Shown here: in pieces, positions 11,592 to 47,633 of the stretch
Layout of the letters: every line of letters begins with the position of its first letter
Numbering within the stretch: the first letter of the stretch is position 1
From: Bryoerythrophyllum caledonicum
Lineage: Eukaryota; Streptophyta; Bryopsida; Pottiales; Pottiaceae
Direction: 5' to 3'
Assembly (NCBI GenBank): GCA_963971425.1
Contig: OZ020516.1
Location: 13,566,593-13,630,592 of the forward strand
DNA length: 64,000 nucleotides
The notes under the pieces: model-generated
What the model saw: the letters and a program-made list of their open reading frames with translations, nothing else
What the model was told of the DNA's origin: nothing
Databases searched by the model: none
Position numbers and translations under genes: made by a program

Positions 11592-12095
11592 TTAAGGGCT
11601 ACAGGGTTACGGGCCCGCTAAAAAAGCTTCTTCCTTTGATTTCTAAAGAGCTTCTCCCATCAAGGCAGTGTGGGAGGTTTGCCTTCTATGGTACTACTTG
11701 GCGGGTATAACTTACAAGCAGACTACTTGTACTGTACATACAGTGACTGCCAAATCTGAGTACAAAATAGCTTAGTCTACCTTTAGCCATTCATATTTTA
11801 TAATTTACTACATTTAATGCCAAATCAATTGACGGCTCAAGTATACATGCAAGTAAATGATGTGGCTACCAAATTACAAGTGCAACAATGCAAAATAATT
11901 TGAGAAAGGTATAGATAAAGGTAAATTAGCTCTAAAACTTAGTTATGCTCACGCTTGGATTACGCAATGAATGCTACAAATCTAACATGCACAAGTGGTT
12001 TTCTGGGTCTGATATTTTGGATGGGCATGTTCTTGGCCTTCACATTTAAAATTGTGTCCCTATTCAGTGCACATCATATATGCAAATTGAGCAAA

Positions 12096-23964: not shown

Positions 23965-26900
23965 GAGAAGAAGAACGTCGGTCTCCGAAGGAGCCGGCGT
24001 GAATAAAGTGTTTGTTCGTTCCACTACTAAGACCATGCCCACCGGACAAGGAATTAGTAAATTGGAACTACTTCCCCCTCTCGAGGGTAGACACTATGTA
24101 ACAGGTGACCAGATACCAACCAAGCACACAAACAACCAATGTAACAACTAACAAAGCAAGTCGCCAAAACCACAAAACCAACTAGTCAAGATAAATCTGG
24201 GCGGAGAAGCATTTAAGGGGGATCTTGAGTATCGGGGAGGGCTTGGTTGTTTTCAATTTTACGTTTATGTAGCAAAATGGACATGGCATATTGAATAGCG
24301 ATGGTGTTAATTTTTTTAAAAGTGGTTTTGATTGTTTCAATGGGTATTTTGAAGGTATCTTCTAGAGTTTTCATAGATGGGATAAAGGTGGTGGCACGAG
24401 CGCCAGATGTGATAACAATAAGGGGGTCTACCTTCCATCCAAAGGCAATGATGTCGTCAATGAGGGGTTGGTATTTGTCTATTTTGTTTTGGATTGTTTC
24501 CGGAGAAAATCTATCGTTGCAATATGTGAATTCAATGAATTGAATGGTGTAGTCTTGGTTAATGTGGTCGGGTGGCGGATCATTGTATGGTAAACCTCTG
24601 ACACATAGGATGTCCGGTTTGAGCCTAGCGTTGCAATGACATCTTTGGGTCACACATGAGCATGGGAGTAGCCAAGGGGGGACCGTATTTTCTTGTGGAT
24701 TGTTATTAAAAATGCCGGCGTTCATTAGTATAAAACATCTCACTTTATTGTAGGAGGTGATTAGTTTTCGGACTTCCCCTACCGCTTTATTATGCCTTTT
24801 AACAATTAGAGAGTGTATGTGGTGGTTTTGGCATTTGAGTAGAACATGAAGCCATGTGTCGGAGTCCGTTGAGGGGCATATGGGGCATGTTATGGATGGG
24901 AACCTTTCTAATCCAAAGAAGAGTTGTTTGCGAGCGTTTCCCATATATTGACCAGTACAGAATTTGATGAGGCATGTTATTTGTGAGTCTGAGATGATGG
25001 GGTTTTTCCAAAAGTTTGTAGAGAGTTCATTGTCTATGTCGTTATTGTTAGTCCATTTTTCTATGTAAGGAATATTTTCTGAGATTGTGTCAAGGTTGTT
25101 GTAGAGGTCTTGTTTTTTGAGATATTTGCCCAAAAATCTAATTGGGCCTTTGTCGGGGGTATCTTCTTTGGAAGGCCAATCTTCTTTTTGAAAGTAGTAT
25201 GGGGTGGCATGGGCATGTTCGTGTGGATCTTTGGCATTTTTGTCTGTTTTTTCTCGGCCTTCTTTTGCAAGTTTGTCTGCTTGTTCGTTGCCGTCAATGT
25301 TGGCATGGGCTCTCACTTTGTGAAGGGTTGTGATTTGTGTACGGTTTTGTAACATTTGGACCATTGATGTTAATATGGTTTGGTCGGGGTGGCTATTGTG
25401 AAGGGTAGGGTGTGTTATTTGAGTGTTTAGTAGGTAGAGTGCATTTATACAATCGGTGAATATATGTGCAGGTTCATTTTTGTATTTTGTTGTAATGATT
25501 TGTAGTGTTTTGTGAATGGCCATGAGTTCTGCTCTGAGGACGTTTTGTAGGCCATGGAGTCTTTTGGCTAGTTTAATTTCTTTGATAGAATTATACATGC
25601 CATAGCCAGCTTTTTCTCTACGCCAAGAACCCGGGCTAATTTGTTCTGGTGGTTTAAAGGAGCCGTCAGTGTAGTAACTGTGTGCGGGGTTAAATTTTGG
25701 TGTAGTATGAGTTGGGTAGTCAGGGAGAGGGGGATGTGTGACGGAGTAGTTTAATGTGTTGTTGACATAGTTTAGTTTGGACCAGTTTTTACTTTTGTTT
25801 ACTGGGGTTTGTATGGGTGTTGGTGGAGCCAATTTTGTGTATATTCGGTGTATGTTTAAATTGTTTGTTATGGTGGTAAGTTCGGCAAGTTGTTCTAGGG
25901 AACCTAGGGTTTGATTTTGATGATGGACGCATAGTATTTGTAATGTTGATGGCTCGATTCGGGGTTTTTTTAGTTCGGGTGGAATAGTAGGTTCTTCGTA
26001 TGGTATTGTGTCTGCCTCAAATACTGCAATGATATGGGAATCTAAAAATGGGTTTAAATGTTGGTTGTTGTTTTGGTACCAATTGTTGTTCGGTGTGATG
26101 ATGATCGTATTTGTGTTATTTGGATCGTGTTTGGCGGCAAGTCGAGCCCAATGTATTGCTTGTTCCATATCTTTCTCGTTGTGGGGGTGAGCTATACCTT
26201 TACCAATCCATTTATAGTCAAAGGCCTTTCCTAGGGATCCGAATATTTTATCCCTTTCATAAGGTGAGTAGAATTTTTTTAGTTTGGTAGAACATGTGAC
26301 CGGGGAAGAAAAGTATGCTTGTTCGATGTTAAAGGATGTGATTAATGAGTCTAAGATGGGAGTGGGTATTGTGTATTGTGCATTTTTTAGGGGGTCAGTT
26401 TTTGGTATTCGGTATTTATACCTTTGGTATAGCCAGATTATTTCGGTTTCAAAGGATTGGGTCGTTGGTTCGATGTGTGTAGGAGTTTGTAAATTTATAT
26501 TGTATTGATTCCATAGCCATTGGAGTCTAGTAATGGGGATGGTGTGTAAATGTCGGCCATTTTCTTCGTATAGATGTGCTTGATTGTTATTTATTTGGAT
26601 TGTGTTTGAGGATGTAAGGATATCATTTTCGGGGTTGCATTCTGATGTGTGGATGTTTAAGAGAGGGATAATTATGGGTGGTGTTACGGATCTTGAGTCT
26701 GAGAATTGTTCTTGGGGGTGGTGTGCTAGGATGATATCCGAGTATATTTTGTTTTGAATTTTTTGGTAGTATTGTTTTAATTTTTCTGTGTTATGTGTGG
26801 AGGTGTTGGTGTCATGTCGTGGAAATAGGTCTCTTTGGGGAAGCCATTTATTGTATGTGTTATCATTGTGTTGCCATTGACATAAATATTTTGTGTATGT

Positions 26901-28390
26901 ATTTTTTATGTTATTTGTGTCTGTGTGTTGGATATGTTTATGGTTTATGATATTATTAATGGGATATGTGGTAGGGTTTTTGGGGATGTATGTTGGGGGG
27001 CGGGGGTGGTATGTATGTGGAGGGTTAGGGGGGTTGGTTGGTGTGGGAATATTTCTTGGGATGATGTTATTGTTGAGGGTGGTGAATGGATCTTTAAGTA
27101 TATGAGAGTATGGGTGTATGTTGCAAGGAGTATGACATGTAGTGGGGCATGTTGGGTGGCAAAATAGTTGTTTAGCAACATTTAGGGCACTTTTTATTAG
27201 TTTGGATGGGGTGAAGTGGTAGGTTTTGAAATCCTCATTGTTCATGATTTGTGTGCCGTTTGTTATAGTAATTTGGTTTAGTTCAAAAATATTTTTTGAG
27301 AGGAGTTTTTGTAGAAGCTTTTGGGAGAGTTGGGCATTGAGTGTGTTATGATTTAGTGTTTCTTGGCGCCATAGTATTTCTAGTGTTGTAGGATTAGTGA
27401 GGAAGTTTGGGAGCGTACTTTTAAGGTGGGCTTTAGCTATATGTTTTAATAAGAAGAATGTTCGTGTTATCGGTGATCTTATGCAGTCACTTGTTTTAAT
27501 TCTAGGTATGTTTTCTGCGCCACCGTATTGGGCAAGGACATAATGAGTTAGTCCATTATATATTTTTCCAAGTCTACCTTTGTCATTTAAGGCATTTTGT
27601 AGTTGTTCACCTATACAACGGAGGTATGCGTTTTTGAGGGAGAAAGCTTCAAGCCCGAATAGGTTATGCGGGAGTTGGGTTATTGCATTTGACATGCATT
27701 TTGGTAGTCCACATATGGTTTTTTGTATGGCTATTATTTTTTTATCAAGTTTTTTGATAGCTGGCATAGAGTATGGTACACCGTAGAAACTGTATGCCAC
27801 ACCTGGACGTAGTACGGTATCAATCATTTTTATTTTTTGTTTCATGGTGGCCGGGCATGTTGTTAGTTTATTGCATTGTTTGATGAGTTTTGTCGTTGTG
27901 GTGTGGATTTGGATTTTCCATTTTAGTGATGGAACAAGATTTGTACCTAAGTATATGTATGGTTCATTTTGGTGTAATATGGGGATTGGTTGATTGCGGT
28001 AATTGATGTTGGAAGCTTGCATAAGGGCTTTAAAAGTGGTAGGGTTTATTTTGGATTTGTTTGGGCATCCGGTAGCGGCACATTTTGGGACACCTACGTC
28101 CATTCCGGTCCATTTACAATATCTATCAATTTTGTTGAGTTGTATTTGGATAGATTTGATTTTGTTAGTTATGGCGGCGAGGTCATCTGCGTATGCGGCA
28201 GAATTTATTGTGACTTGTGATGTGCCAAAAGTGTATCCATTGTTGCCTCGTTCTAGCCATCTGAGTAGTGGTTCTAAGAATATAATGAATAGGTATGGGC
28301 TAAAGGTATCTCCTTGTATAGTTCCTCTTTGAATGGGTATAGGTTTTGTTTTCCCAAAATGTTCACCAGTATAACAAGTAGATGATTGAG
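23965..28390 (-). mobile_element. LINE copy 1 (Dualen/RandI-like), 5'-truncated, minus strand
   Basis: This is a reverse-oriented copy of the element at 28391-38294. Its 3' end lies at the left, with GAGAAGAAGAAC (a TTC-repeat tail on the minus strand) followed inward by the shared 3' UTR. Its 5' end stops at 28390 inside the reverse-transcriptase region, where the match to 33872 onward of the other copy ends. About two dozen amino-acid differences in roughly 1,270 aligned residues separate the copies, so they are close relatives. I found no target-site duplication flanking it. Confidence 0.85.
24213..28390 (-). CDS. LINE polyprotein, C-terminal part (RT end, MTase-like, RNase H, RLE)
   Basis: Uninterrupted minus-strand frame from the truncation point at 28390 to the stop at 24213. 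The first in-frame Met is at 28103. It holds the RT motif AAYADD, the thumb and linker region, a segment resembling PCIF1-type adenine methyltransferases, RNase HI (YYTDGS, LRAELMAI, FTDCINALYLL, GNEQADKLA), the knuckle CPICPSTDSDTWLHVLLKC, the RHN motif and a restriction-like endonuclease (KPDILC, FIEFTY, KIDKY). The native C-terminus IAIQYAMSILLHKRK is retained here, unlike in the right-hand copy. The truncated 5' end removes the apurinic-type endonuclease and the start of RT, so this copy cannot move on its own. Confidence 0.8.
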
Positions 28391-28782
28391 GCTAGATTGT
28401 CAAGTTTTGAGGAGAGATGTCTGAGAGTAGCTGAGAGCTCCGTATTTTCTGGTTAGGTGCAACAAAGAAGTTAGTCTCTGGGAAGAGGTGTGAGTGCAAC
28501 GAAGGTGGCTGGATCTGTTGCATACCCCGCTCATAGCTAAGATCAGAGGCAATAGTGGGCTTTGAGAGTGGCGTTGTGTTGGGCAGGGGTAGTAAAGGTC
28601 AGATCTAACCCTGGCATTCGAAATTTGAGCGATCTGAAGGTAGATTGGAGTGAGGGATGACCTGAAAGCACTGGGACCCTGTGTTGGCACTCGATCTAAC
28701 TTCTTAGAACTCAAACACGATATACAGGTGTAGATCTAACTTGTGTTGGTTGTGACGCCCTAAGCCCACTTAGACTTCTTGA

Positions 28783-31700
28783 TTGTTGCCCCGACCCAGA
28801 AACCACCACACATACGATCTGAAGTCCACACACAGATTCGGGATAGTAGCGGCTCACACTGAAGGAGCCAACCAGCAGCGAGAACGAGATCTCAAGTCCA
28901 CACAAGTGCAAGAGAGTGCAACCAAGTTACAGAACAGACGAGAGGAAACCGACGATCAAGGAAGTTCACATGACCTGAAGTGCATCCAAGTTCTGCAGCA
29001 AACATCAGCCACAAAGAAGCACACCAACAGCACGAAACCAAGCAGACAGCACTCCATCCCTGGAGTGCCCAGGTTCGATCTGACCTTACTTCATTTCAAT
29101 TTATTTTTTGTTTGTTTATTAGTGTTTGATTTGTTTGCACATTACAGTATACGAGTGATACAAAGAGATCTACAGAGCACTCACACACTAGTAGCTACCT
29201 CCGACATCTTACATATCACCACACTCACATACACTAGATGTAGATCACCACAAGCTCACTGTAACAACACGCACATAAAGCTCCACACTAGATCTCTGAT
29301 AGAAAACCCTATTAAGCTCGTATGTGTAGATCGCACGCGGAAGCGCTGGAAATTTTTCCCAGATCTAGATCTACCTGCACATCAGCAACAAAGACACACA
29401 ACATCAACACTGAAGAAAACGACACGTCGACAGCAGTGCACAAGAACACGACGCAACGGCCAACAAATCCGTAACTCTATCCACATCACAACAAGACCTC
29501 ACAGCAAGATCGCAACATACAATAACACCTCAACAGGGAGCAACCTACAGCAACTTCACACCAAGATTCGATCAAACGTAACGGAGGACCAAGATCCAGC
29601 CCGCGGCAACATAACAGGGAGCACACTCTACCCCTCCTCTCACAGTTCTTCCCCTTCTTGCATTCCTCACTCACCGCTCTCACCTTGCTTAAACCCTCCA
29701 CCTCTCCTCCATGTTCCCTCCTTCATTCTCACCACAGATTCCAAGCTCCCCCACCCAAGCCCCCGGCGCATTACTACAGACAGTCACCTGAATCGAATCC
29801 AAAGACCACGACCCAACCCTCCACAAACCCTCGCACTCACACAACTTCTCCCTGCGAACCTCTCCCTGCAAACCTCTCCCCATAGCGACCCCTGGAACTC
29901 CCCTTGCGACCTACAAAACCTTGGTAGCGACCTTGTGAATCTTCATAGCGACCCCTGGAAATCCCCCTGCGACCTATCAATTGGTAGCAACAACCCCTGG
30001 AAATCCCCCTGCGACCTACCAATTGGTAATAGCGACCTCCCTAATCCCCCCTGCGACCTACCTAATTCCCCTAGCGACCTACCTAATTCCCCTTGCGACC
30101 TACCTAATCCCCCTTGCGACCTACCTAATCGCCCTTGCGACCTACCTAACCCCACTACCAGTACATATACTGGTACGTATTCTGGTGCGTATTCTGGTAC
30201 GTATTCTGGTATGTATAATCATACGAATACCGATATGAATACTGATACATATATTGATACGTATATTGGAGTACATATTGGTACGTATATTGGTACGTAT
30301 ATTGGTACATATACTGATTCATATACTGATATGAATACTGATATGAATACCAATACAAATACTTGTACGAATACTAACACGAATACTTACACAAATATTG
30401 ATACGAATACCAAGACGAATACTTACACGAATACTCATACAAATACCAAGACGAATATTAAGGCACATACTAATACGAACATACGAATGAATACAAATAT
30501 AAAACCAAATACAACTACATATACACACACAAAGACAACCACACACCATCAAAGAAACACATACATATACACACACACACACAAAGACGAATACATACAA
30601 TCAAAAAAGCACCAAAAAAAATACCAAAGCCACATACAAAAACACAAAATTCCAAAACAAAACAATAAACCCACCTACTACAAACTACTAATATTAATTG
30701 GAGGGGACATAAACACAAGGCCAAACACAACCAAAAAAAAATATAAACAAACACACACACACCTATACACCATTAATAAAACAAAAACAAGTACGCAAAC
30801 AAACACATGGACACAAAAAAAATTAAAGATAAATACAATTACATTCAAAAAAAATATTGAATTTATAAACATCCACCTCTCTCCAAACAAACAAGACCTC
30901 CATAACATAACAAAGCCCCAAAGAATTACAAAAAAAGAAAAAACATTAAAAAACAACACTAAACACACATATCACAAACTCCTACTACTTCTAGGAGGGG
31001 ACATAGAAACTAACCCAGGACCCATGCCTAATATACTAAAAAGACACCCTACTTCACATAAGAAAAATGCAAAAATTTACTTCATACCTAATACCATAAA
31101 ACTACAACCGGAATATAGACACATTGCAAAATCTTTTGCACCTTTCTTAAAAAACACACATACATTACACCACACACATAACAACACATATCCAAACATT
31201 GCCCGATACGTTCAACAAAAAAATGCGCATCCACCACCTCACATACTATATGCTCTAGTAGTCACTACCCATCCACACATAGATGAATGTAACCATCTCT
31301 TAAACCCACAAAACCTGAACACAATTACATGGGTCAATACACTTCTACAAAACTTACTAAACTTACAAAATCCACCGGAACGACACATCTACACTTCACA
31401 CCCGTATACAAAGTTCCTTGAAGACAACCAAAATATTATAAACCATGAGAACTCAATACATAAGGAACTATATGACTTTTTACACAGCGAAACAATATCT
31501 CCCTCAAATGAAACAATAAAAATAAAATTCCCCTACCTACCTAACAATCTCATCAATGAATCACTAAAATGTTTGGACCCTATACCAGAATACACCCACC
31601 CACCCCCACCACTTCCCTACATCTCTCCGCAAAACCAAAATATTATATCAAATCAAGAAAATACATACATAATCACATGGAATGCCTCCTCTCTAAACAC

Positions 31701-34700
31701 TGCCCTTCCTAGCCTACAAACTTTGGTCACGCACACAAATACACCACCAGCCCTCATAGTTATACAAGAAACAAAATTATCTGCCACAAAATCCACAAAA
31801 TATATACAAAATATATTTCAAGACTATAAACTCATCTATAACAATATACATGCACTTACAAGATGCATTCAACAACGAAGACCATACACACCAGGCCGAG
31901 GAGGTCTCCTTACACTAATACACAAAAAATATGCCTTCCCGGGCAACATCAACAAAATCCCTACCCCAATGCACATATCACCTTACATTCAAATAATCAA
32001 AATTACTAATCACCCTCTACAACCATGGTTAATCTTTCACATGTATATGCCATCTCATCCCGAAGACACTAGATTTATCATAGACATACAAAACACTATT
32101 ACTTCCCAAATTCATAATAACCCTAATCACACATACCTATTGTGTGGGGACTTCAACAGAGACATAGCATTAATTGGTCGCCAAAATGGAAATCATAACA
32201 CCCCCCCTCAAACCATTGATTACCAATGGCGCCGCTTCACAGAAAACTTAAACTTCGTCTACATCGATACCGATACACAATTCTCTAGACAAGGTGGCTA
32301 TAATTACAGCGACTGGAGTCTAATAGATGGATTCTACATAAATACAAACAACAATACACAATACACCTCTACAACAAACAAGGATGTTATTCTCAACTCG
32401 GACCACTCACCTATACAATTACACATTCCAAATAACACATTAATTAATAGAACTCCTACAATCCTAAAAAATGATACTATACGCATACTCAACCCCATTC
32501 CAAAAGACAATATAGAAAAATTCAACACCAAATTCTTTGAAAAAAACTCCATACAAATAGACTCCCTCATAAACACTCTCGAAAATAACAATCAATTATC
32601 ACAAATACAATGGCAAGAAGCATGCCACACCCTAGACAAACTTATCAATGCAATCTCTGACACACTAGAACAAACTTGTAAAGCCCAACCAATACCTCAA
32701 ATGACAAACAGAACTTCTCAACAAGGAGGTTACTTACCCCGTAAACTTTCTAAAACTTGGAAACAACACCTAACCACATACCATACTATACGGAAAACCA
32801 TTAGAATTGTAAAAAATAACCCTCAATGGCGTAATCACCCCATATGCAACGAACTACTAACTATACAATACACCCAAATCCCTACCCCGCCACCTTCGGA
32901 CCTACCTCACGATACATGGATAAAAAATATAGCACTAATTGCAAAAAATGCCAACATACAAGCCCGCAAAATTACCTCAAAATATACCAAAGATAACATT
33001 AAAAAAGCCATTTCAAAATATAGACAACTATACGAAATTAGCCCCAAAAAAATTAACAGGAAAGTTTTTAAAAACCTTGAATATCCACCAATGGATTGTA
33101 TCACAGACCAATACAACAATATTCTAACTAGCCCAGAAGACATTGCAAATGAAATATTCAACCAACAAACCAAAAGTAATAGACCAACAGTACCAACATG
33201 TAATTATCAACCACAACATCCATCTGAATGTACATGTGCAGTACGCCAGTACCCATGGCACGACCTCGATGGATTTACCCTTGACAAACGAGGCGAACCA
33301 GAAATCTCACTACATAAATACTTTAATATAGCCACATATGACACATGTCTTCACAATCTTGGTAACAACAAAGCCCCAGGCCCAGACCGCATCCCAAACT
33401 CAATACTAAAAAACATGCCCCCAAGATTCCATAAACTATTATTACTATTCTTTTCTCATTGTTACAAACAAAAACAAATACCTATGTCATGGAAATCAAG
33501 TACAACAATTCTACTATACAAAAAAGGCGATCCATCTATACTACCCAACCATAGGCCAATTGCACTAGCTAACACAATATACAAACTCTTCACTAGTACA
33601 CTCACCTCTATACTATCCTCATACGGTGAAAAATTCAAAATCTTACATGATAGTCAAGAAGGATTTAGAGCAGAAAGAAGTACCGCTAGACAAATACAAA
33701 CTATAATAGCCGCACTAGAAGACGCAAGATTTACAAACCAAGATATATACATACTATACGTCGACTTCAAAAACGCCTTTGGCTCAATGGACCATGCCCG
33801 ACTATTAGCAATAATGATGGACCTTGGTTACCCAAAAGATGCAACTACACTTATTGGTAACATCTATTCTCAATCATCTACTTGTTATACTGGTGAACAT
33901 TTTGGGAAAACAAAACCTATACCCATTCAAAGAGGAACTATACAAGGGGATACCCTTAGCCCATACCTATTCATTATATTCTTAGAACCACTACTCAGAT
34001 GGCTAGAACGAGGCAACAATGGATACACTTTTGGCACATCACAAGTCACAATAAATTCTGCCGCATACGCAGATGACCTCGCCGCCATAACTAACAAAAT
34101 CAAATCTATCCAAATACAACTCAACAAAATTGATAGATATTGTAAATGGACCGGAATGGACGTAGGTGTCCCAAAATGTGCCGCTACCGGATGCCCAAAC
34201 AAATCCAAAATAAACCCTACCACTTTTAAAGCCCTTATGCAAGCTTCCAGCATCAATTACCGCAATCAACCAATCCCCATATTACACCAAAATGAACCAT
34301 ACATATACTTAGGTACAAATCTTGTTCCATCACTAAAATGGAAAATCCAAATCCACACCACAACGACGAAACTCATCAAACAATGCAATGAACTAACAAC
34401 ATGCCCGGCCACCATGAAACAAAAAATAAAAATGATTGATACCGTACTACGTCCAGGTGTGGCATACAGTTTCTACGGTGTACCATACTCTATGCCTGCT
34501 ATCAAAAAACTTGATAAAAAAATAATAGCCATACAAAAAACCATATGTGGACTACCAAAATGCATGTCAAATGCAATAACCCAACTCCCGCATAACCTAT
34601 TCGGGCTTGAAGCTTTCTCCCTCAAAAACGCATACCTCCGTTGTATAGGTGAACAACTACAAAATGCCTTAAATGATAAAGGTAGACTTGGAAAAATATA

Positions 34701-37700
34701 TAATGGACTAACTCATTATGTCCTTGCCCAATACGGTGGCGCAGAAAACATACCTAGAATTAAAACAAGTGACTGCATAAGATCACCGATAACACGAACA
34801 TTCTTCTTATTAAAACATATAGCTAAAGCCCACCTTAAAAGTACGCTCCCAAACTTCCTCATTAATCCTACAACACTAGAAATACTATGGCGCCAAGAAA
34901 CACTAAATCATAACACACTCAATGCCCAACTCTCCCAAAAGCTTCTACAAAAACTCATCTCAAAAAATATTTTTGAACTAAACCAAATTACTATACCAAA
35001 CGGCACACACATCATGAACAATGAGGATTTCAAAACCTACCACTTCACCCCATCCAAACTAATAAAAAGTGCCCTAAATGTTGCTAAACAACTATTTTGC
35101 CACCCAACATGCCCCACTACATGTCATACTCCTTGCAACATACACCCATACTCTCATATACTTAAAGATCCATTCACCACCCTCAACAATAACATCATCC
35201 CAAGAAATATTCCCACACCAACCAACCCCCCTAACCCTCCACATACATACCACCCCCGCCCCCCAACATACATCCCCAAAAACCCTACCACATATCCCAT
35301 TAATAATATCATAAACCATAAACATATCCAACACACAGACACAAATAACATAAAAAATACATACACAAAATATTTATGTCAATGGCAACACAATGATAAC
35401 ACATACAATAAATGGCTTCCCCAAAGAGACCTATTTCCACGACATGACACCAACACCTCCACACATAACACAGAAAAATTAAAACAATACTACCAAAAAA
35501 TTCAAAACAAAACATACTCGGATATCATCCTAGCACACCACCCCCAAGAACAATTCTCAGACTCAAGATCCGTAACACCACCCATAATTATCCCTCTCTT
35601 AAACATCCACACAACAGAATGCAACCCCGAAAATGATATCCTTACATCCTCAAACACAATCCAAATAAATAACAATCAAGCACATCTATACGAAGAAAAT
35701 GGCCGACATTTACATACCATCCCCATTACTAGACTCCAATGGCTATGGAATCAATACAATATAAATTTACAAACTCCTACAAACATCGAACCAACGACCC
35801 AATCCTTTGAAACCGAAATAATCTGGCTATACCAAAGGTATAAATACCGAATACCAAAAACTGACCCCCTAAAAAATGCACAATACACAATACCCACTCC
35901 CATCTTAGACTCATTAATCACATCCTTTAACATCGAACAAGCATACTTTTCTTCCCCGGTCACATGTTCTACCAAACTAAAAAAATTCTACTCATCTTAT
36001 GAAAGGGATAAAATATTCGGATCCCTAGGAAAGGCCTTTGACTATAAATGGATTGGTAAAGGTATAGCTCACCCCCACAACGAGAAAGATATGGAACAAG
36101 CAATACATTGGGCTCGACTTGCCGCCAAACACGATCCAAATAACACAAATACGATCATCATCACACCGAACAACAATTGGTACCAAAACAATAACCAACA
36201 TTTAAATCCATTTTTAGATTCCCATATCATTGCAGTATTTGAGGCAGACACAATACCATACGAAGAACCTACTATCCCACCCGAACTAAAAAAACCCCGA
36301 ATCGAGCCATCAACATTACAAATACTATGCGTCCATCATCAAAATCAAACCCTAGGTTCCCTAGAACAACTTGCTGAACTTACCACCATAACAAACAATT
36401 TAAACATACACCGAATATACACAAAATTGGCCCCACCAACACCCATACAAACCCCAGTAAACAAAAGTAAAAACTGGTCCAAACTAAACTATGTCAACAA
36501 CACATTAAACTACTCCGTCACACCTCCCCCTCTCCCTGACTACCCAACTCATACTACACCAAAATTTAACCCCGCACACAGTTACTACACTGACGGCTCC
36601 TTTAAACCACCAGAACAAATTAGCCCGGGTTCTTGGCGCAGAGAAAAAGCTGGCTATGGCATATTTAATTCTATCAAAGAAATTAAACTAGCCAAAAGAC
36701 TCCATGGCCTACAAAACGTCCTCAGAGCAGAACTCATGGCCATTCACAAAACACTACAAATCATCACAACAAAATACAAAAATGAACCTGCACATATATT
36801 CACCGATTGTATAAATGTACTCTACCTACTAAACACTCAAATAACACACCCTACCCTTCACAATAGCCACCCCGACCAAACCATATTATCATCAATGGTC
36901 CAAATGTTACAAAACCGTACACAAATCACAACTCTTCACAAAGTGAAAGCCCATGCCAACATTGACGGCAACGAACAAGCAGACAAACTTGCAAAAGAAG
37001 GCCGAGAAAAAACACACAAAAATGCCAAAGATCCACACGAACATGCCCATGCCACCCCATACTACTTTCAAAAAGAAGATTGGCCTTCCAAAGAAGATAC
37101 CCCCGACAAAGGCCCAATTAGATTTTTGGGCAAATATCTCAAAAAACAAGACCTCTACAACAACCTTGACACAATCTCAGAAAATATTCCTTACATAGAA
37201 AAATGGACTAATAATAACGACATAGACAATGAACTCTCTACAAACTTTTGGAAAAACCCCATCATCTCAGACTCACAAATAACATGCCTCATCAAATTCC
37301 GTACTGGTCAATATATGGGAAACGCTCGCAAACAACTCTTCTTTGGAATAGAAAGGTTCCCATCCATAACATGCCCCATATGCCCCTCAACGGACCCCGA
37401 CACATGGCTTCATGTTCTACTCAAATGCCAAAACCACCACATACACTCTCTAATTGTTAAAAGGCATAATAAAGCGGTAGGGGAAGTCCGGAAATTAATC
37501 ACCTCCTACAATAAAGCGAGATGTTTTATACTAATGAACGCCGGCACTTTTAATAACAATCCACAAGAAAATACAGTCCCCCCTTGGCTACTCCCATGCT
37601 CATGTGTGATCCAAAGATGTCATTGCAACGCTAGGCTCAAACCGGACATCCTATGTGTTAGAGGTTTAGCATACAATGATCCGCCACCCGACCACATTAA

Positions 37701-38190
37701 TCAAGACTACACCATTCAATTCATTGAATTCACATATTGCAACGATAGATTTTCTCCGGAAACAATCCAAAACAAAATAGACAAATATCAACCCCTCATT
37801 GACGACATCATTGCCTTTGGATGGAAGGTAGACCCCCTTATTGTTATCACATCTGGCGCTCGTGCCACCACCTTTATCCCATCTATGAAAACTCTAGAAG
37901 ATACCTTCAAAATACCCATTGAAACAATCAAAACCACCTTTAAAAAAATTAACACATCGCTATTCAATATGCCATGTCCATTTTGCTACATAAACGTAAA
38001 ATTGAAAACAACCAAGCCCTCCCCGATACTCAAGATCCCCCTTAAATGCTTCTCCGCCGAGACTTATCTTGACTGGTTGGTTTTGTGGTTTTGGCGACTT
38101 GCTTTGTTAGTTGTTACATTGGTTGTTTGTGTGCTTGGTTGGTATCAGGTCACCTGTTACATAGTGTCTACCCTCGAGAGGGGGAAGTAG
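28783..38190 (+). CDS. LINE polyprotein with 2A, APE, RT, MTase-like, RNase H and RLE domains
   Basis: Open frame of 3135 codons. The frame opens at a TTG; the first in-frame ATG is at 30211, so true translation may start there or at a non-ATG codon. Numbered from 28783: in-frame minisatellites at about 367-575; 2A motif DIETNPGP ending at residue 747; APE endonuclease about 960-1200 (ITWNASSL, VIQETKL, LCGDFNRD, SLIDGFY, NSDHSPI); RT about 1520-1800 (APGPDRIP, LYKKGDP, YVDFKNAFG, YADD at 1762-1765); PCIF1-like segment about 2370-2495; RNase HI about 2600-2740 (TDGS with Asp 2604); knuckle from Cys 2864 then RHN; RLE with KPD 2953-2955, Glu 2982 and KIDKY 2998-3002. One base is missing near 37955 relative to both other copies, which replaces the last about 33 residues with a longer read-through tail. 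Confidence 0.8.
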   Translation: MLPRPRNHHTYDLKSTHRFGIVAAHTEGANQQRERDLKSTQVQESATKLQNRREETDDQGSSHDLKCIQVLQQTSATKKHTNSTKPSRQHSIPGVPRFDLTLLHFNLFFVCLLVFDLFAHYSIRVIQRDLQSTHTLVATSDILHITTLTYTRCRSPQAHCNNTHIKLHTRSLIENPIKLVCVDRTRKRWKFFPDLDLPAHQQQRHTTSTLKKTTRRQQCTRTRRNGQQIRNSIHITTRPHSKIATYNNTSTGSNLQQLHTKIRSNVTEDQDPARGNITGSTLYPSSHSSSPSCIPHSPLSPCLNPPPLLHVPSFILTTDSKLPHPSPRRITTDSHLNRIQRPRPNPPQTLALTQLLPANLSLQTSPHSDPWNSPCDLQNLGSDLVNLHSDPWKSPCDLSIGSNNPWKSPCDLPIGNSDLPNPPCDLPNSPSDLPNSPCDLPNPPCDLPNRPCDLPNPTTSTYTGTYSGAYSGTYSGMYNHTNTDMNTDTYIDTYIGVHIGTYIGTYIGTYTDSYTDMNTDMNTNTNTCTNTNTNTYTNIDTNTKTNTYTNTHTNTKTNIKAHTNTNIRMNTNIKPNTTTYTHTKTTTHHQRNTYIYTHTHKDEYIQSKKHQKKYQSHIQKHKIPKQNNKPTYYKLLILIGGDINTRPNTTKKKYKQTHTHLYTINKTKTSTQTNTWTQKKLKINTITFKKNIEFINIHLSPNKQDLHNITKPQRITKKEKTLKNNTKHTYHKLLLLLGGDIETNPGPMPNILKRHPTSHKKNAKIYFIPNTIKLQPEYRHIAKSFAPFLKNTHTLHHTHNNTYPNIARYVQQKNAHPPPHILYALVVTTHPHIDECNHLLNPQNLNTITWVNTLLQNLLNLQNPPERHIYTSHPYTKFLEDNQNIINHENSIHKELYDFLHSETISPSNETIKIKFPYLPNNLINESLKCLDPIPEYTHPPPPLPYISPQNQNIISNQENTYIITWNASSLNTALPSLQTLVTHTNTPPALIVIQETKLSATKSTKYIQNIFQDYKLIYNNIHALTRCIQQRRPYTPGRGGLLTLIHKKYAFPGNINKIPTPMHISPYIQIIKITNHPLQPWLIFHMYMPSHPEDTRFIIDIQNTITSQIHNNPNHTYLLCGDFNRDIALIGRQNGNHNTPPQTIDYQWRRFTENLNFVYIDTDTQFSRQGGYNYSDWSLIDGFYINTNNNTQYTSTTNKDVILNSDHSPIQLHIPNNTLINRTPTILKNDTIRILNPIPKDNIEKFNTKFFEKNSIQIDSLINTLENNNQLSQIQWQEACHTLDKLINAISDTLEQTCKAQPIPQMTNRTSQQGGYLPRKLSKTWKQHLTTYHTIRKTIRIVKNNPQWRNHPICNELLTIQYTQIPTPPPSDLPHDTWIKNIALIAKNANIQARKITSKYTKDNIKKAISKYRQLYEISPKKINRKVFKNLEYPPMDCITDQYNNILTSPEDIANEIFNQQTKSNRPTVPTCNYQPQHPSECTCAVRQYPWHDLDGFTLDKRGEPEISLHKYFNIATYDTCLHNLGNNKAPGPDRIPNSILKNMPPRFHKLLLLFFSHCYKQKQIPMSWKSSTTILLYKKGDPSILPNHRPIALANTIYKLFTSTLTSILSSYGEKFKILHDSQEGFRAERSTARQIQTIIAALEDARFTNQDIYILYVDFKNAFGSMDHARLLAIMMDLGYPKDATTLIGNIYSQSSTCYTGEHFGKTKPIPIQRGTIQGDTLSPYLFIIFLEPLLRWLERGNNGYTFGTSQVTINSAAYADDLAAITNKIKSIQIQLNKIDRYCKWTGMDVGVPKCAATGCPNKSKINPTTFKALMQASSINYRNQPIPILHQNEPYIYLGTNLVPSLKWKIQIHTTTTKLIKQCNELTTCPATMKQKIKMIDTVLRPGVAYSFYGVPYSMPAIKKLDKKIIAIQKTICGLPKCMSNAITQLPHNLFGLEAFSLKNAYLRCIGEQLQNALNDKGRLGKIYNGLTHYVLAQYGGAENIPRIKTSDCIRSPITRTFFLLKHIAKAHLKSTLPNFLINPTTLEILWRQETLNHNTLNAQLSQKLLQKLISKNIFELNQITIPNGTHIMNNEDFKTYHFTPSKLIKSALNVAKQLFCHPTCPTTCHTPCNIHPYSHILKDPFTTLNNNIIPRNIPTPTNPPNPPHTYHPRPPTYIPKNPTTYPINNIINHKHIQHTDTNNIKNTYTKYLCQWQHNDNTYNKWLPQRDLFPRHDTNTSTHNTEKLKQYYQKIQNKTYSDIILAHHPQEQFSDSRSVTPPIIIPLLNIHTTECNPENDILTSSNTIQINNNQAHLYEENGRHLHTIPITRLQWLWNQYNINLQTPTNIEPTTQSFETEIIWLYQRYKYRIPKTDPLKNAQYTIPTPILDSLITSFNIEQAYFSSPVTCSTKLKKFYSSYERDKIFGSLGKAFDYKWIGKGIAHPHNEKDMEQAIHWARLAAKHDPNNTNTIIITPNNNWYQNNNQHLNPFLDSHIIAVFEADTIPYEEPTIPPELKKPRIEPSTLQILCVHHQNQTLGSLEQLAELTTITNNLNIHRIYTKLAPPTPIQTPVNKSKNWSKLNYVNNTLNYSVTPPPLPDYPTHTTPKFNPAHSYYTDGSFKPPEQISPGSWRREKAGYGIFNSIKEIKLAKRLHGLQNVLRAELMAIHKTLQIITTKYKNEPAHIFTDCINVLYLLNTQITHPTLHNSHPDQTILSSMVQMLQNRTQITTLHKVKAHANIDGNEQADKLAKEGREKTHKNAKDPHEHAHATPYYFQKEDWPSKEDTPDKGPIRFLGKYLKKQDLYNNLDTISENIPYIEKWTNNNDIDNELSTNFWKNPIISDSQITCLIKFRTGQYMGNARKQLFFGIERFPSITCPICPSTDPDTWLHVLLKCQNHHIHSLIVKRHNKAVGEVRKLITSYNKARCFILMNAGTFNNNPQENTVPPWLLPCSCVIQRCHCNARLKPDILCVRGLAYNDPPPDHINQDYTIQFIEFTYCNDRFSPETIQNKIDKYQPLIDDIIAFGWKVDPLIVITSGARATTFIPSMKTLEDTFKIPIETIKTTFKKINTSLFNMPCPFCYINVKLKTTKPSPILKIPLKCFSAETYLDWLVLWFWRLALLVVTLVVCVLGWYQVTCYIVSTLERGK
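29881..30160 (+). repeat. In-frame 21-nt minisatellite in the LINE leader
   Basis: Units of about 21 nt built on TGCGACCTACCTAATCCCC encode a heptapeptide of the type PCDLPNP/S. Earlier, looser units read SDPWKSPCDL. The frame is kept throughout because the unit is a multiple of three. Confidence 0.85.
30160..30500 (+). repeat. In-frame 12-nt (and 6-nt) minisatellite in the LINE leader
   Basis: Units such as ATTGGTACGTAT and ACTGATATGAAT encode tetrapeptides (IGTY, TDMN) grading into TNTN repeats. The result is a Thr/Asn/Tyr-rich low-complexity protein segment. The first in-frame ATG of the long frame (30211) lies within this array. Confidence 0.85.
30676..30726 (+). other. Decayed second 2A-like motif
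   Basis: The frame reads YYKLLILIGGDINTRPN, the same layout as the intact 2A motif about 300 nt downstream (KLLLLLGGDIETNPGP). The required E-x-N-P-G-P core has become N-T-R-P-N-T. It is therefore not expected to cause ribosome skipping. Confidence 0.65.
30973..31023 (+). other. 2A ribosome-skipping motif
   Basis: In the LINE frame, HKLLLLLGGDIETNPG is followed by P (codon 31021-31023) and then Met (31024). This is a complete D-(V/I)-E-x-N-P-G-P 2A core with the usual hydrophobic run before it. Such motifs separate an upstream and a downstream protein during translation, and they are known from several non-LTR retrotransposons. Here it would free the low-complexity N-terminal product from the endonuclease/RT polyprotein. 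Confidence 0.85.
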
Positions 38191-38294
38191 TTCCAGTTTA
38201 CTAATTCCTTGTCCGGTGGGCATGGTCTTAGTAGTGGAACGAACAGACACTTTATTCACGCCGGCTCCTTCGGAGACCGACGTTCTTCTTCTTC

Positions 38295-39003
38295 TGAGAT
38301 TTTCAATAATAGCAAGTAGTATTTTTTCCCTTCACATTGTCAAAAAAATGGTTCTTGTCTTTAGTGAAGAATAGCATATTAACCCAAGTCAAACATTTTC
38401 ACACATTGACACACATTCTCGAGCAAGGTACCAAAAAAACTTCTTTTTTTCCATATAAAACTTAGGGATCTTCATATTTTTTACTTTATATTTTTCCCAC
38501 AACAATATGTGGCATAAATGTTCTTATTGACCATTTGGATTACCATACTAAAACATATTATTTTCACAAAAAATTAAAGCGTGAATTGGCAATATTTGAA
38601 CCTCAATTCCTTGCACAGTTGTTTTGAATATGCTACACCCCTCTTCTACCTCTAAAAATTGGTGTATGAAGGAACTAGTATCATGCTTAACAAGATGGTA
38701 ATGGAGTTAGACCTTGTGTAGTGCAAAAATCTGACACCAAGTGAAGTCAAAGTCTGTTGATCCACTAAACGCAGGGAAAAAAATGAACTATTTGCTTGAC
38801 TCTAAACTTTATAATCTTTCAATCCATGCGGTCAGAGTTTATGAAAATTTTTGAGTGTGTTACTCAACAAGTCTTAATTGAGATCCTACGGTCAAAACTA
38901 GAAATGAAAGTTTTTGTTTCCTTCATTGTTTCCTTCTTTATTGCACTAGAATCCAACAATTTTGAAGTGTTTTTGGTGTGAAATTGTCACGGTTCCTTAG
39001 GGG
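38295..39003. mobile_element. Right half of a TTAA-family element, cut by LINE copy 2
   Basis: Directly after the LINE tail the sequence joins the CCCCTAAAGGACC family in mid-element (GAGATTTTCAA, ATTGTCAAAAAAATGG, TCAAACATTTTCACACATT). It runs to its right end TTGTCACGGTTCCTTAGGGG at 39003, before TTAA (39004-39007). The matching left half is not on the other side of the LINE pair. Confidence 0.55.
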
Positions 39004-40346: not shown

Positions 40347-41448
40347 AATGTGTTTAGAGGACATGAGAAACAATGGCCAGTTGTGGAAAGAGTTAGAGCA
40401 CCAAAATGACACTCCCAGTGCCTTGTACGCGGTAAAGGGTTAACTCTGGTATAAATGACATCCAAATGTCAATCTTGCCTTCCTTGTTTGGTACTGTATA
40501 TCATCCAAGTTTGGCACTTCACCAAGTAAATAGTTAAATCTAAAAATAACTCACCTAGTAAATCTTTTTGAAGAATAATATCCAGATACTTTGGAGAAGT
40601 ATTTAGTGAAGATTTATTTATTTTTGCCAAACCAGACGCTCAGGTACAGTATCATTGACCAAGTTCATGACATGAATTTATTTTCTGCATTTGATTACAT
40701 GGTTGCCAGTTACCGGTATTGCCTTGGATTGTAGCAATTCCTTGCGTACAAGGAGTTATTACTGACATGATGTGTTACACATAAGTTAAGTTAGTGTACA
40801 TGGACTGTACGATGAAAAGGCAAGCAAACCAATATCGTACTGTTTAATTCTCAGTCATACAGGAATTACTTTTTTGAGGATAATTCAATTTTTATCTATC
40901 TTGAATTTTTCTTGAAGAATAATTCCATACTAGTCCTCAATAAAAATCACGTAGAATATCATAAGTTTTGTTATATTGATCCCCTACATTTTGGAGCTGC
41001 TAGTCTTCAATAAAAAAAATCACTTAGAATGTCGTAACGCTTGCATGAATCTCTTGTTATCGAACTTGCAGGAACCTCCCGCAACCTGAGGCCCGCATTC
41101 TCTACGTCCTAGGGAATTCCAGCCCCATTCCCACGCCTCACGGGTATAATGCCCATCGTACGGCCATGGAATGTCTGCCGTAGTATCCACGTTCACATGA
41201 GATTGCCAAATTTCTTTAGGGCATTACGTAGGGAGAGTCCCTTCCGTGAGAGACTCATGGAAGGGACTCTCCCTATACATAACTTTTGTTATATAGATCC
41301 CCTAAGAAGAATATCACATCTCCACATTGTGTCTATCTTTGTGCATCTTCACACCAAATTTAAAGGATTCATGAATTGCAATTGTGGAAACCTGCTCTTC
41401 ATTTGCAAAATCCACTTAGGAACTTTAGAGCTACAGGGATAAAGGTAA
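40347..41448. other. Intergenic, no gene recognised
   Basis: AT-rich, with a GC-richer segment at about 41070-41280 that contains a strong hairpin (next entry). A 97-codon frame at 41149-41442 runs through the hairpin and is not recognisable as a protein. Confidence 0.35.
41229..41275. other. Near-perfect 22-bp stem with 3-nt loop
   Basis: TAGGGAGAGTCCCTTCCGTG then AG, loop AGA, then CTCATGGAAGGGACTCTCCC then TA. All positions pair except one. The loop is too short for a typical plant microRNA precursor. A cruciform-forming site or a mutational inverted duplication are the likely readings. Confidence 0.6.
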
Positions 41449-41460
41449 CTACAACCACCA

Positions 41461-41523
41461 GGAGAAGAAGAACTCCGGTGCCCGGAGGGCTGGTGTGAAT
41501 AAAGTGTTTGTTCATACCACCAC
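41461..41523 (-). mobile_element. 63-bp LINE sliver with 12-bp target duplication
   Basis: On the minus strand this is the last about 60 bases of the LINE: GAACAAACACTTTATTCACA through the TTC-repeat tail (GTTCTTCTTCTCC). It is flanked by CTACAACCACCA at 41449-41460 and again at 41524-41535. The perfect 12-bp duplication shows that it arrived by target-primed insertion and was cut off after about 60 nt. Confidence 0.85.
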
Positions 41524-43153: not shown

Positions 43154-46100
43154 CGTTATCAGCACGAAGCTCTATATTTTACATCCCTTCCTTGTTCCTA
43201 TTTTACTTTACTTCTTATCATGGCTACACCTGCACCAAAGAGGGCCAAGGACAACAAGGAACAAGTGCAACCTCTCTTATTTGAAGCTTTGGAGGCAGAT
43301 GGAAGCAACTACATGCAATGGAGCATCTATGTGAAGGCATTTTTTTCCGCGGAGTTGTTGGAGGGCACTTTGCAGTTGGAGACACTGGAGAATCTCCATC
43401 ACCTTTGAAGTGGAAGGCACTCCTCATCTAGTTGAGGCTCTTGGACATCTCCCTCCGCCAGTAGTACATCCAAGTAGACAACCCATACAACCTATGGCAA
43501 CAATTGGAGGTCAGGTTCCATTATGAGAAGACTATCTTTCTCCCTCAAGCTCGGAGTGAATGGATTCATCTCAGGGTGATGGACTTCCCTGACCTCTTGA
43601 CTTTCAACGCGGAGCTTCATTGCATCACAACCCAGTTACGACTTTGTGGGGAGAAGATTGAAGAGCAAGAACTCAAAGATAAGACTATCTACGTTTCCCC
43701 ATGTTTCTGCTATTTTAGCTCAACAGTACTACAATATGAAATTCACGTCTCATTCCAAGTTAATGTCTCAACTCTTGCTTGCTGAGAAGCGATCACTACT
43801 TCTATTGAAGAATGCGGAGTCCAACCCTATCAAGGAGACACACACTGTGGAGATGGCGGCACGAAAACCACGTGGCAAGGGGAAGCCGCAATCAAAGCAG
43901 CCTCAACACTCTTCCTCAAAATCCAAAGATAAGTCATCTGGAAAACCTGACTTTGGAAATTCTAAGATTGATAAGTCTAAGTCACAACGTGAGACTCGTG
44001 ATTGCCTTAAATGTAGTGGAACTGGACATCTAGCTAAGGATTGTAGAACTTCAAATACTGTGTAAAATTGTATCAGGAGTTGCAACAGCTTAAGTCCAGG
44101 GATAGGCAACCTCATACACTTGATGTTTCATCTCTCGATAGTGTAGATCCCAAAAATTATATGGTGTGCATGGATGAGTCCGAGGTATAATGTGATGTTG
44201 CTTTGTTGGACATCGCCACCACTAATACGATCTTGCGAGATCCGAAGTACTTCAATTTTTCCAGCAAGCTGAAGCCTGGCAAACATGTGATGTTATCACA
44301 ATTGCTGGAAGACGGAATTTACAATTTTGTGAGGGCCAAGCAACCGTAGTGTTGCCTGGGGGACCCCCCCTCAAGTGTACACATGCGATGTACTCTCCCA
44401 ATGCTCCCCAGAGTCTGATCAGCTACCGGGATCTTAGAGCTAATGGGATCCAGCTCCACACTACAGTAAAGGATGGTGAAGAAGCCTTAGAGCATAGGCA
44501 AGGGACTCAGTCCCTTGTCATCGCACATGCGGGAGCCAATGGCTTATATGGACTGAAGATTTCAAGTATCGCTGATGACAGTCCATCCACAAGTAAACAT
44601 CCCAGGGGATCTGTTTTCTCTATGATTTCTCCAACCAAAGTTGGACTCTGGCATGATAGGCTTGGGCACCTCGGGACCACGATGTTTCGGCGCATGCTAC
44701 CTATACACACATGACATGAAGTCTGCCTGAGTGATGCCAACAAGGTGGATGACTGTGTTGCTTGTTCTCAAGGAAAGCTTATCTAGAGGCCATCACGGTG
44801 GAAACTACCAACGGAGCTTCCACCAAGACTACAAAGACTACAAGGTGATGTCTGCGGACCTATCAATCCTCCATCAGGGCCCTTCAAGTACTTTTTAGTC
44901 CTTGTTGATGCTTCTGGGACGCATTTTAAGGTCACACTCCTGAGTACTAGGAACATGGTTTTTGCAAAGCAATTAGCCATGCTAATTAAGTTCCATACTC
45001 ATTATCTTGATAGTCCTGCGAAAAGTCTAAGAATGGACAACGCTAAGGAGTTCAGTTCTCATAAGTTTGAGGAATATTGTGTAGCATCAGGTATTTCCTT
45101 GACTTATTCCGTTCCTTATGAGCATTCTCAAAATGATCTAGCTGAAGCTTTCATCAAGAAGATTCAGCTTATTACACGACCCCTTTTTATACATGCCAAA
45201 CTTCCTTCTAGCTTTTGGAATCATGCAGTACTCCATGCAGTACTCCATGCAGCTACTTTGCTTAGGTTACGTCCTACTTTACTCAATGATCATTCTCCTT
45301 TAGAGCTAGCATCATGACAAGTTCATAATGTTGTTCATTTGAGAACCTTTGGGTGTTGTGTATGAGTCCCCGTAGCAGAGCCTCAAAGGAAGAAGGTTGG
45401 TATTCACCGTCTAGAAGGTATATATATAGGTTTTGATTCCTTCAGTATCATTCGCTATGTCATTCCCTCAATCGGTACTCTTCAAAGAGCCCGATTTCAA
45501 AACTGTCAGTTTGAGGAAACACAGTTTCCCTCCATAGCAACCCCTAAATCTAGTCCCGGTTTAGAGTTCTGGGCTCTAGAGACCTTTACTCTGAACCCTG
45601 ATCCTTGAACTACCCTTGCTGATTCAGAAATTTCTAAGCTTCTAGAGCTCAAATCCCTTGCTGAAAAATTGCCTGATGGTTTCAACAATACCCCTAGGGT
45701 GACTAGCAATCCACTTCCTAATATTGGTCCTTCACTGGTCACTATCAAGCCTCAGAAGCATAGCATTGACCCAATCCTACCTTCCCCCAAAGTGCCCCGA
45801 ACCAACCCTCTCAGTCTTCATAGTGATCTCTTGTCTCCTCCTGACTCTGATAAATCCTTCATTTGTATCCCAGTTGAATCTAACTTTGTGCTCACCTTTG
45901 TCACCCGGATTACTACCTCTGCTTCTGATCTTGTGACACTAGATGAAGCCAAAGCAAGTTCTGACTGGCCCCAATGGTTAGAAGCTTTGAAAGCTGAGTA
46001 TTCTTCTCTTAGGAAGCATAGTGTCTTTGGTCCCTTAGTCACTAACCTCCCTTCTAAGCCTATAGGTTTCGAACTCATATTTTCTAAAAAACGAAATGCT

Positions 46101-47633
46101 CAAGGGCATGTCGTTCGGTAAAAAGTCCGGTTGGTAGCCTAGGGATTCACTCAAAGACCCGGAGTGGATTATAACTTCACCTACTCCCCTGTTATGGACT
46201 CAGGCACGTTTCGATATTTGTTAGGTATGGCTGTACAATACTCTTTAGATACTGAGCTCCTTGATGTTGTTACTGCCTACCTTTATGGTCCACTAGATGC
46301 TATTATACACATTGGACCTCCGCTTGATTTCCTCTCGGAGATCCCTCTAAAGGATACTCAGGGATCCTATTATGGACTCAAACTCCAGAAAGCTCTCTAT
46401 GGTCTCAAACAAGCCGGTAGGATGTGGTATAAGCACTTACGTGACTTCTTGCTTCATCACAAGTTCCAACATGATCAGTCTCTACCTTGTCTCTTCACTT
46501 TGAAGGAGGCTACCGGTTTTGTTATTATTGCAGTGTATGTCGATGACCTTAACCTTGTAGGCACCCCAGACACTTGTAAGCATGCTATGAGTTTACTCAA
46601 GACCCAATTTGAGATGAAGTTGCTAGGCAAGACTACTTTTTGCCTAGGACTCCAAGTGGCTTATTTGCTTGATGGAAGTATCTTTCTCCATCAAAGCACT
46701 TATACTCAAACCTTGTTGAAAAGGTTCAATATGGACCAAGCTAGTCCACTTTCCGCCGCCATGATGTGGCGAAGTAGAACACTTGATGATCCCTACCGTC
46801 CTTGCGAGGAAGAGGAGGAGTTATATGACAAGAACAAGTACCTCGCAGCCGTAGGAGCTCTTTTGTACTTGTCTACATATACGCGCTCGGATATTTCCTT
46901 TGCAATAAGTGTACTTGCCAGGCACAGCCAGAAGCCCGGAGTGTGTCACTGGAATGGAGTGAAGCAACTACTCCGATACGTCAGAGGCACAAAAGACTTG
47001 GAGCTACACTACACCAAGGATGGAACCCCAGAAATCACTGGGTATGCTGATGCTGGTTTCAAGTCTCATGAAGATTCTGGAAAGTCCTAGACCGGCAACA
47101 TCTTCCTCAAAAATGACGCACCAATCTCATGGAAGTCTGTGAAGCAAATCGTCACAGCCACTTCTGCCAACCATTCGGAGCTGATTGCATTTCATGAAGC
47201 CACGAGGGAGGCAATTTGGCTACGCAACATGCACAAGGTAATCATGGAGCAATGTGGGCTTATCCGAGACAACAAACCAACTATCATCTTTTAAGACAAT
47301 GCTGCATGCGTTGCACAAGTAGGAGCCGGTTTCATCAAAACTGACTGAGTCAAGCATATCAGCCCTCAGCTATTTGGATTCACTCAAGATCTTATACAAG
47401 GTGGATAAATTAAGGTAAAGAAGATTGATTCAACCCAAAATATAGCTGATATGTTGACTAAAGCTCTCCCAACCTATACACATAGAAGGTTAGCACAGAA
47501 GGCTGGGATGAGGTTGCTTCATGAATTAAATCCTTGATAAGTTATACTCTTTTCTAGATCTATGGATTTTTCCTACTTTAGGTTTTTGCCATGGAAATAG
47601 TTTTTAATGAGGCAACTTTAGATCAAGAAGGAG

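Follow-up and report, generated by a model that had tools for sequence, protein, structure and literature searches.

Elements that encode two endonucleases have been taken as a link between LINEs with a restriction-like endonuclease (RLE) and those with an apurinic-type endonuclease (APE), and where Dualen is placed matters for understanding the switch from RLE to APE, in the sections of a paper on which we draw (PMC4640811). In the same sections, Dualen/RandI elements, known from Chlamydomonas and its relatives and annotated in cryptophytes as well, combine APE and RLE with RNase H in one element (PMC4640811), and their tails are repeats other than poly(A), given for RandI as (ATT)n and (CTATTT)n (PMC3747384). 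The descriptions used here, which are our only basis of comparison for Dualen, contain neither a PCIF1-like domain nor a 2A motif. For land plants, the part of a 2022 review that we consulted names only L1 and RTE LINEs (PMC9033089). Among the open-access literature matches listed, none describes a land-plant LINE with two endonucleases. R2 LINEs, with which the C-terminal motifs and the reverse transcriptase (RT) of the present element are compared below, are not known to carry an APE domain. How two nucleases work together within one element is, to our knowledge, still an open question.

Here, we analysed a 64-kb stretch of DNA (the window) from the 437-Mb genome of Bryoerythrophyllum caledonicum. 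Its plus strand holds a near-full-length LINE copy that probably represents a non-LTR retrotransposon with two endonucleases, of the Dualen/RandI-like type, active until recently in a land plant. This reading builds on the set of domains, the constraint on both nuclease regions, tens of copies that are nearly identical, their (TTC)n tails and target-site duplications (TSDs) of about 12 bp. The element resembles Dualen/RandI in combining APE, a putative RLE and RNase H and in its non-poly(A) repeat tail; it differs in its land-plant host and in the tail sequence, (TTC)n. A family that was recently active, with tens of frames that are intact, well-marked TSDs and constraint on both nuclease regions, makes the division of labour between the two enzymes directly testable, in a host group so far credited only with L1 and RTE LINEs in the part of the review used (PMC9033089).

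Extent and layout of the element

The copy and its parts are as follows.

28391–38295, + strand: young LINE copy, from the 5' leader to a (TTC)4 tail, with ends taken from other copies and their target-site duplications
30211–31020, + strand: low-complexity Asn/Thr-rich stretch derived from tandem repeats, in an ORF1-like position, from the ATG at codon 477 to the 2A site
30979–31023, + strand: predicted 2A (StopGo) motif LLLLLGGDIETNPGP, from the sequence
31660–32427, + strand: APE-type endonuclease (WNASS, QETK, GDFNRD, SDHSPI), Pfam PF03372
33343–34587, + strand: reverse transcriptase, YADD at 34066, Pfam RVT_1
35305–35436, + strand: possible chromodomain, weak, Pfam Chromo PF00385
35770–36186, + strand: PCIF1-like domain (cap m6Am methyltransferase family), PF12237
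36580–37011, + strand: RNase HI domain, PF00075
37372–37905, + strand: CCHC knuckle, RHN (37462), KPD (37639) ... E ... KIDKY (37774), from alignment with R2 RLEs in the PDB
near 37955, + strand: one-nucleotide deletion, from comparison with other copies
38043–38295, + strand: 3' UTR with a predicted terminal hairpin and the (TTC)n tail

At about 9.9 kb, the copy is near full length; the longest leader seen, in a copy at 1.3 Mb of C12, extends about 34 bp further at the 5' end. The extent originally assigned from the letters alone, 28391–38294, closely fits the ends derived from other copies. A stop-free frame of 3135 codons covers positions 28783–38190, and the other two plus-strand frames of this stretch contain 166 and 201 stops, with at most 119 open codons; the frame stretch stayed open in none of 300 simulations with a first-order Markov model. 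The 3135-codon frame described by the sequence-only reading is open and carries the domains, with corrections at both ends. The first in-frame ATG is codon 477, so that codons 1–476 need not be coding, and no clear codon-position signal was seen in 28783–29682. At the other end, the deletion near 37955 puts the residues after about 3058 (the last 77 codons) out of frame; the family's usual C-terminus reads IAIQYAMS...DPP.

Downstream of codon 477, the order is Asn/Thr-rich stretch, 2A, APE, RT, chromodomain-like stretch, PCIF1-like domain, RNase H and, finally, CCHC, RHN, KPD, E and KIDKY, all on a strongly A/C-rich coding strand. A Pfam scan of the whole plus-strand protein listed only RVT_1, PCIF1_WW and Chromo; APE and RNase H surfaced in scans of segments; RNase H was also matched in the minus-strand copy described below.

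Reverse transcriptase and the two nucleases

An APE upstream of the RT and an RNase HI after it had both been read from the sequence, and both were borne out by segment scans, the former by Exo_endo_phos (PF03372, 1.1e-06, above the cut-off; ExoIII 0.0017) and the latter by PF00075 (2.4e-14). The chromodomain-like stretch stayed under its cut-off (PF00385, 0.0062, 16.9 bits against 25.1). The RT itself matched RVT_1 (PF00078, 8.2e-26) and, in the PDB, R2 (1.3e-30) and L1 (1.3e-19). Its scores were 121 and 120 bits against a pair of R2 RTs and 94 against human L1; for scale, the R2 RTs against human L1 gave 108 and 89 bits. By these scores it is nearer to R2 than to L1, and about as distant from each as R2 is from L1, which fits a separate lineage such as Dualen without proving it. 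In a whole-protein PDB search no L1 appeared at E <= 1, an effect of the search, since the RT alone did match L1.

These scores bear on the possibility that the element is a plant LINE of the L1 or RTE type that carries accessory domains, which we consider very improbable. Plant L1/RTE elements likewise have APE and RT, RNase H and the marks of TPRT; the host is a plant, for which the review sections used name only these LINEs (PMC9033089), and RNase H is described for plant L1 too in the account cited above (PMC4640811). However, the RT lies nearer to R2 than to L1 in a comparison that comprised R2 and human L1, the tail is (TTC)n where the review's relevant part gives (A)n or (GTT)n (PMC9033089), and the C-terminus carries an RLE motif; the PCIF1-like domain and the 2A motif are further differences. 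A genome search also spoke against this alternative, with zf-RVT matched at E <= 1e-8 at 5 places (150 scored of 428 candidates). We take zf-RVT to be a domain typical of plant L1; as a source of a plant L1 RT for control, two stretches beside its matches contained no RT. The earlier statement that the element differs from plant L1 and RTE thus holds with respect to L1 (121 and 120 bits to R2 against 94 to human L1), the side that the RT comparison covered. For the Dualen/RandI-like element that we favour, four scans of viral contigs, with the whole protein, the RLE part, the RT and an RT profile, returned no relative.

The C-terminal segment presents its CCHC, RHN, KPD, E and K..KY motifs in the order found in R2 LINEs, which also provide the best RT matches in the PDB. 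In a MAFFT alignment with R2 RLE sequences from PDB entries, C..C, H, C, RHN and KPD coincide; the acidic and K/Y residues further on correspond on visual inspection, with MAFFT placing the longer KPD-to-E loop elsewhere (26 residues, as against 12 in R2 chain 8gh6). When the C-terminal ~317 residues were shuffled 20000 times, the ordered pattern, itself drawn up after the sequence had been seen, never appeared. KPD, E and K..KY are present in all four rows of an alignment of this segment; a relative, L091, has a frameshift just before KY. D, E and KIDKY are kept in five of five older copies, two of which (L046 and L027) have changed the P of KPD. Given the motif order and this conservation, we take the segment, with moderate confidence, to be an RLE. 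The sequence-only reading had looked to restriction-like endonuclease profiles for this segment; Pfam and PDB searches, including a PDB profile search, returned no RLE match for it. An hhalign comparison with R2 aligned the CCHC-RHN part alone (E 0.012, probability 3.5%; control segment E 0.22), and AlphaFold2 on the C-terminal part (two rows) gave a mean pLDDT of 33.

The element might instead be an APE-only LINE whose C-terminal CCHC/RHN/KPD segment is a relic or a nucleic-acid-binding domain that has lost nuclease function. This is unlikely, yet it would sit well with the lack of a profile-level RLE match, the restriction of the hhalign result to CCHC-RHN, the longer PD-to-E spacing and the altered P in two of five older copies. 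It is opposed by the retention of D, E and KIDKY in the five older copies, by KPD, E and K..KY in the four aligned rows, and by selection. In a pooled comparison of older copies with the young sequence, excluding the minus-strand copy of the window and pieces of >98.9% identity, Ka/Ks was 0.12 in the RLE region and 0.11 in the APE region. The other regions gave 0.20 (linker), 0.08 (RT), 0.18 (chromodomain-like) and 0.12 (PCIF1-like), and RNase H gave 0.23 (156 codons, one older copy). True constraint is probably stronger, because the older copies are interrelated and decay neutrally after insertion. From the purifying selection on both regions we infer that both nucleases have been needed. The data support the proposed dual-endonuclease layout of this plant-genome element; two endonucleases of different origin in one frame are backed by a Pfam match on the APE side and by ordered motifs and constraint, with no profile match, on the RLE side. 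The sequence-only reading had missed the PCIF1-like domain, the 2A motif, the inverted older copy and the frameshifted C-terminal end.

PCIF1-like domain and 2A motif

Between RT and RNase H, the element carries a domain that matches PCIF1_WW (PF12237, 2.6e-13, 50.4 bits, cut-off 31.1). It shares FxSPxxC and FGSxG blocks with vertebrate PCIF1 in PDB alignments, which were weak (E 0.056 and 0.59); in a PDB profile search with the alignment of PCIF1-like domains, PCIF1 appeared only at E 0.98, behind a designed TPR protein (0.098), and AlphaFold2 on this part (two rows) gave a mean pLDDT of 36. The domain differs from the PCIF1/CAPAM cap m6Am methyltransferases in its placement within a LINE protein and in the NPPF motif, whose position reads AHPHN (36067) in the young copies and [H/Y]PH in six of six aligned relatives, with HPH also in L097. 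Disruption of NPPF lowered PCIF1 activity in the portion of the study available to us (PMC6318281). Since NPPF is replaced by AHPHN, the domain is unlikely to transfer methyl groups in the known way and probably acts without canonical N6-methylation; that it binds capped RNA or another ligand is a guess. No PCIF1 domain in a LINE was reported among the open-access literature matches listed, and such a domain would newly link cap biology with retrotransposition.

The N-terminal part of the protein is less constrained, with a Ka/Ks of 0.55 (306 pooled codons, older copies against the young sequence). It leads up to a canonical 2A motif, DIETNPGP at 31000, which satisfies the consensus (D/G/C/N)(V/I)ExNPGP as defined in the passages used of two papers (PMC4981915; PMC12846837). 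The motif is intact in three of the four older copies that cover the site, the remaining one carrying G746R. Ribosomes presumably skip at this predicted motif; internal initiation is also possible, because codon 748, directly after the 2A proline, is ATG. The 2A-bearing LINEs of animals and trypanosomes likewise have D[V/I]ExNPGP within a polyprotein, in the sections seen (PMC4981915), and differ from the present element, which has a plant host and two nucleases. Use of 2A by a plant element would be of note given that a survey of viruses, in its relevant part, found no evidence for natural 2A use by plant viruses (PMC12846837). The module containing the 2A motif is itself duplicated (30618–30711 and 30904–31005, 72% identical), with a degenerate motif, GGDINTRPN, starting at 30700 in the first unit. 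In another copy (L025, at 31.68 Mb of C3), the N-terminal repeat region seems to have been duplicated in frame, and the open frame spans 3484 aa.

Copies, integration marks and nested insertions

A genome search with the protein of the older window copy scored 36 places, one being that copy itself and 35 sharing one score; this is a lower bound, as the search needs the last 3.9 kb and short truncated copies go uncounted. The frames at the 35 places comprise 29 of exactly 3087 aa, one of 3484 and five shorter ones. A PF12237 search (150 scored of 2614 candidates, all 150 above the cut-off) yielded at least 42 places with the PCIF1 score of the young family, 33 of them in 3087-aa frames; six of the 42 were not in the older-copy search and are known by their PCIF1 score alone. 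Further PF12237 places sit in long frames of diverged families. Among 19 copies compared over 5.58 kb (one over 5.3 kb), there is one substitution in total. The amplification burst is very recent, unless polishing of the assembly to one sequence has levelled the copies and overstated their identity.

Integration marks were read from 28 independent events, obtained from the 35 copies and the window copy by merging J/K, O/P, V/W and window/B, using their outer flanks, and leaving out four copies without a flank (F, S, C256 and C3:12.49 Mb). A TSD stands at the junction in 27 of the 28 events (copy H has none that is clear). The TSDs measure 12 bp in 16 cases, 13 in seven, 11 in two, and 10 and 15 in one each, these lengths being the longest shared match, so that single values may err by one to three letters; the TSDs of A, D, G, P, AB and AC include one to three possible tail letters, and one letter from the start of the element is included in those of E, R and AB. 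At the 5' junction of copy G stand nine bases without an explanation. All 28 events have (TTC)3–7 tails, followed by T in 26. So narrow a spread of TSD lengths suggests that the two cuts fall at an almost constant distance from each other. R2 LINEs are rDNA-specific, whereas here the targets of the 28 events differ and are scattered, with TSDs near 12 bp, and an Rfam search within the 64-kb window gave no match, rRNA families included.

The junctions lie in sequence of the element's own family in 18 of 28 events, 17 antisense and one sense (Y), with 10 elsewhere. A, N and AA fall in a low-complexity array, in which a similar sequence need not be an older copy; a conservative recount without them leaves 15 of 28 within the family (14 antisense, one sense). 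In the case of I, AH and AI, alignment of one flank starts only 170–280 bases away from the junction. Array-type matches, in both orientations, occur within 1 kb of five of the 10 outside junctions (O/P, Q, T, U and V/W). As a rough control, in which whole 800-base pieces were set against junctions, one of 20 random 800-base pieces from 10 contigs held family sequence (~670 of 16000 bases); the excess at junctions gave a Fisher p of 2.5e-5, and the orientation bias a p of 1.4e-4. N and AA, as well as D and AE, struck equal positions in different older copies. Older copies may be good antisense targets because their strongly A/C-rich sense strand can provide the primer strand for a (UUC)n tail. 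Zepp and Zepp-like elements of green algae also insert into their own copies and form clusters, in the account as available (PMC8226300), but Zepp is an L1, and the present case involves a different element and an antisense bias. Young copies of the present family form clusters too (L025, L030, L033 and L040), one of them head-to-head inside another young copy.

These observations are compatible with a scheme in which 2A skipping would release a protein of about 2340 residues (APE-RT-PCIF1-like-RNase H-RLE) apart from the low-complexity N-terminal product. The released protein would bind the 3' end of the element RNA, and one nuclease would nick the target strand whose 3' end pairs with the (UUC)n tail and primes reverse transcription (TPRT). 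The other nuclease would nick the opposite strand about 12 bp off, giving the narrow range of TSD lengths, and new copies would enter older ones antisense, drawn by the A/C-rich sense strand. It is tempting to speculate further, as a long shot, that a captured, non-methylating PCIF1 holds the capped 5' end during TPRT and thereby favours many full-length insertions, that the two nucleases in one protein set the near-fixed 12-bp stagger, and that strand-biased coding turns the family's own older copies into antisense landing pads.

The window copy illustrates this nesting. The following features surround it.

1169–2245: host-type gene, DUF677 (1.2e-21)
8106–9206: host-type gene, ROH1-like (1.3e-34) with BPS1 (3e-13)
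23966–28397, − strand: older copy, 3' part only, hosting the plus-strand copy antisense, 98.8% identical
41463–41523, − strand: extremely truncated 3'-end insertion of ~62 nt, sense orientation, flanked by the 12-bp TGGTGGTTGTAG
62021–62836, + strand: older copy, truncated at the 5' end and 82% identical in DNA, in which the C-terminus and part of the RLE are still open, with TGATTTTTGG on both sides

The repeats on either side of the 62-kb copy and of the ~62-nt fragment are integration marks like those of the young copies. The minus-strand copy differs from the young sequence by 54 mismatches and one gap in 4431 and has changes absent from the young copies. Its tail and that of the plus-strand copy point outward and their heads abut at 28397/28398, as might be expected if the head-to-head pair were a single event of bidirectional TPRT or twin priming. 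The TSDs make this extremely improbable, and bidirectional TPRT was rejected on that evidence: the 12-bp TAGATGATTGAG stands in the left (5') flank of the window copy and again in the right (3') flank of copy B (L003; start about 50 kb past the end of the window copy), where the older copy resumes, so that the two flanks joined give a single older copy that had been interrupted. In another head-to-head pair (L025), the insertion is nested and has a TSD of its own. Because TAGATGATTGAG is shared crosswise and the older copy continues at B, the outer flanks of the window copy and B are swapped, by recombination or by misassembly.

That the identical copies and swapped flanks are assembly artefacts is very improbable. 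The mismatch between the two flanks of the window copy, the identity of the left flank of B to that of copy C (1236 of 1236 bases) and the tandem pairs at ~10 kb spacing would agree with it; the 28 insertion sites, 27 with a TSD, and the varying leader and tail lengths argue for genuine copies. The tandem young-copy pairs (C6, C7 and C8) may be local duplications or assembly effects.

The host-type genes of the window belong to families (ROH1-like, BPS1 and DUF677) that are presumably those of land plants. The window also contains Copia remains on the plus strand (44787–47090; RVT_2 5.2e-36, and rve 1.5e-06, under the cut-off), a 255-aa frame with a Tc1/mariner-type transposase HTH (11943–12710; PF01498, 2.5e-10) and, near the ~62-nt LINE fragment, a 22-bp inverted repeat (41229–41275; 95% complementary, 3-nt loop).
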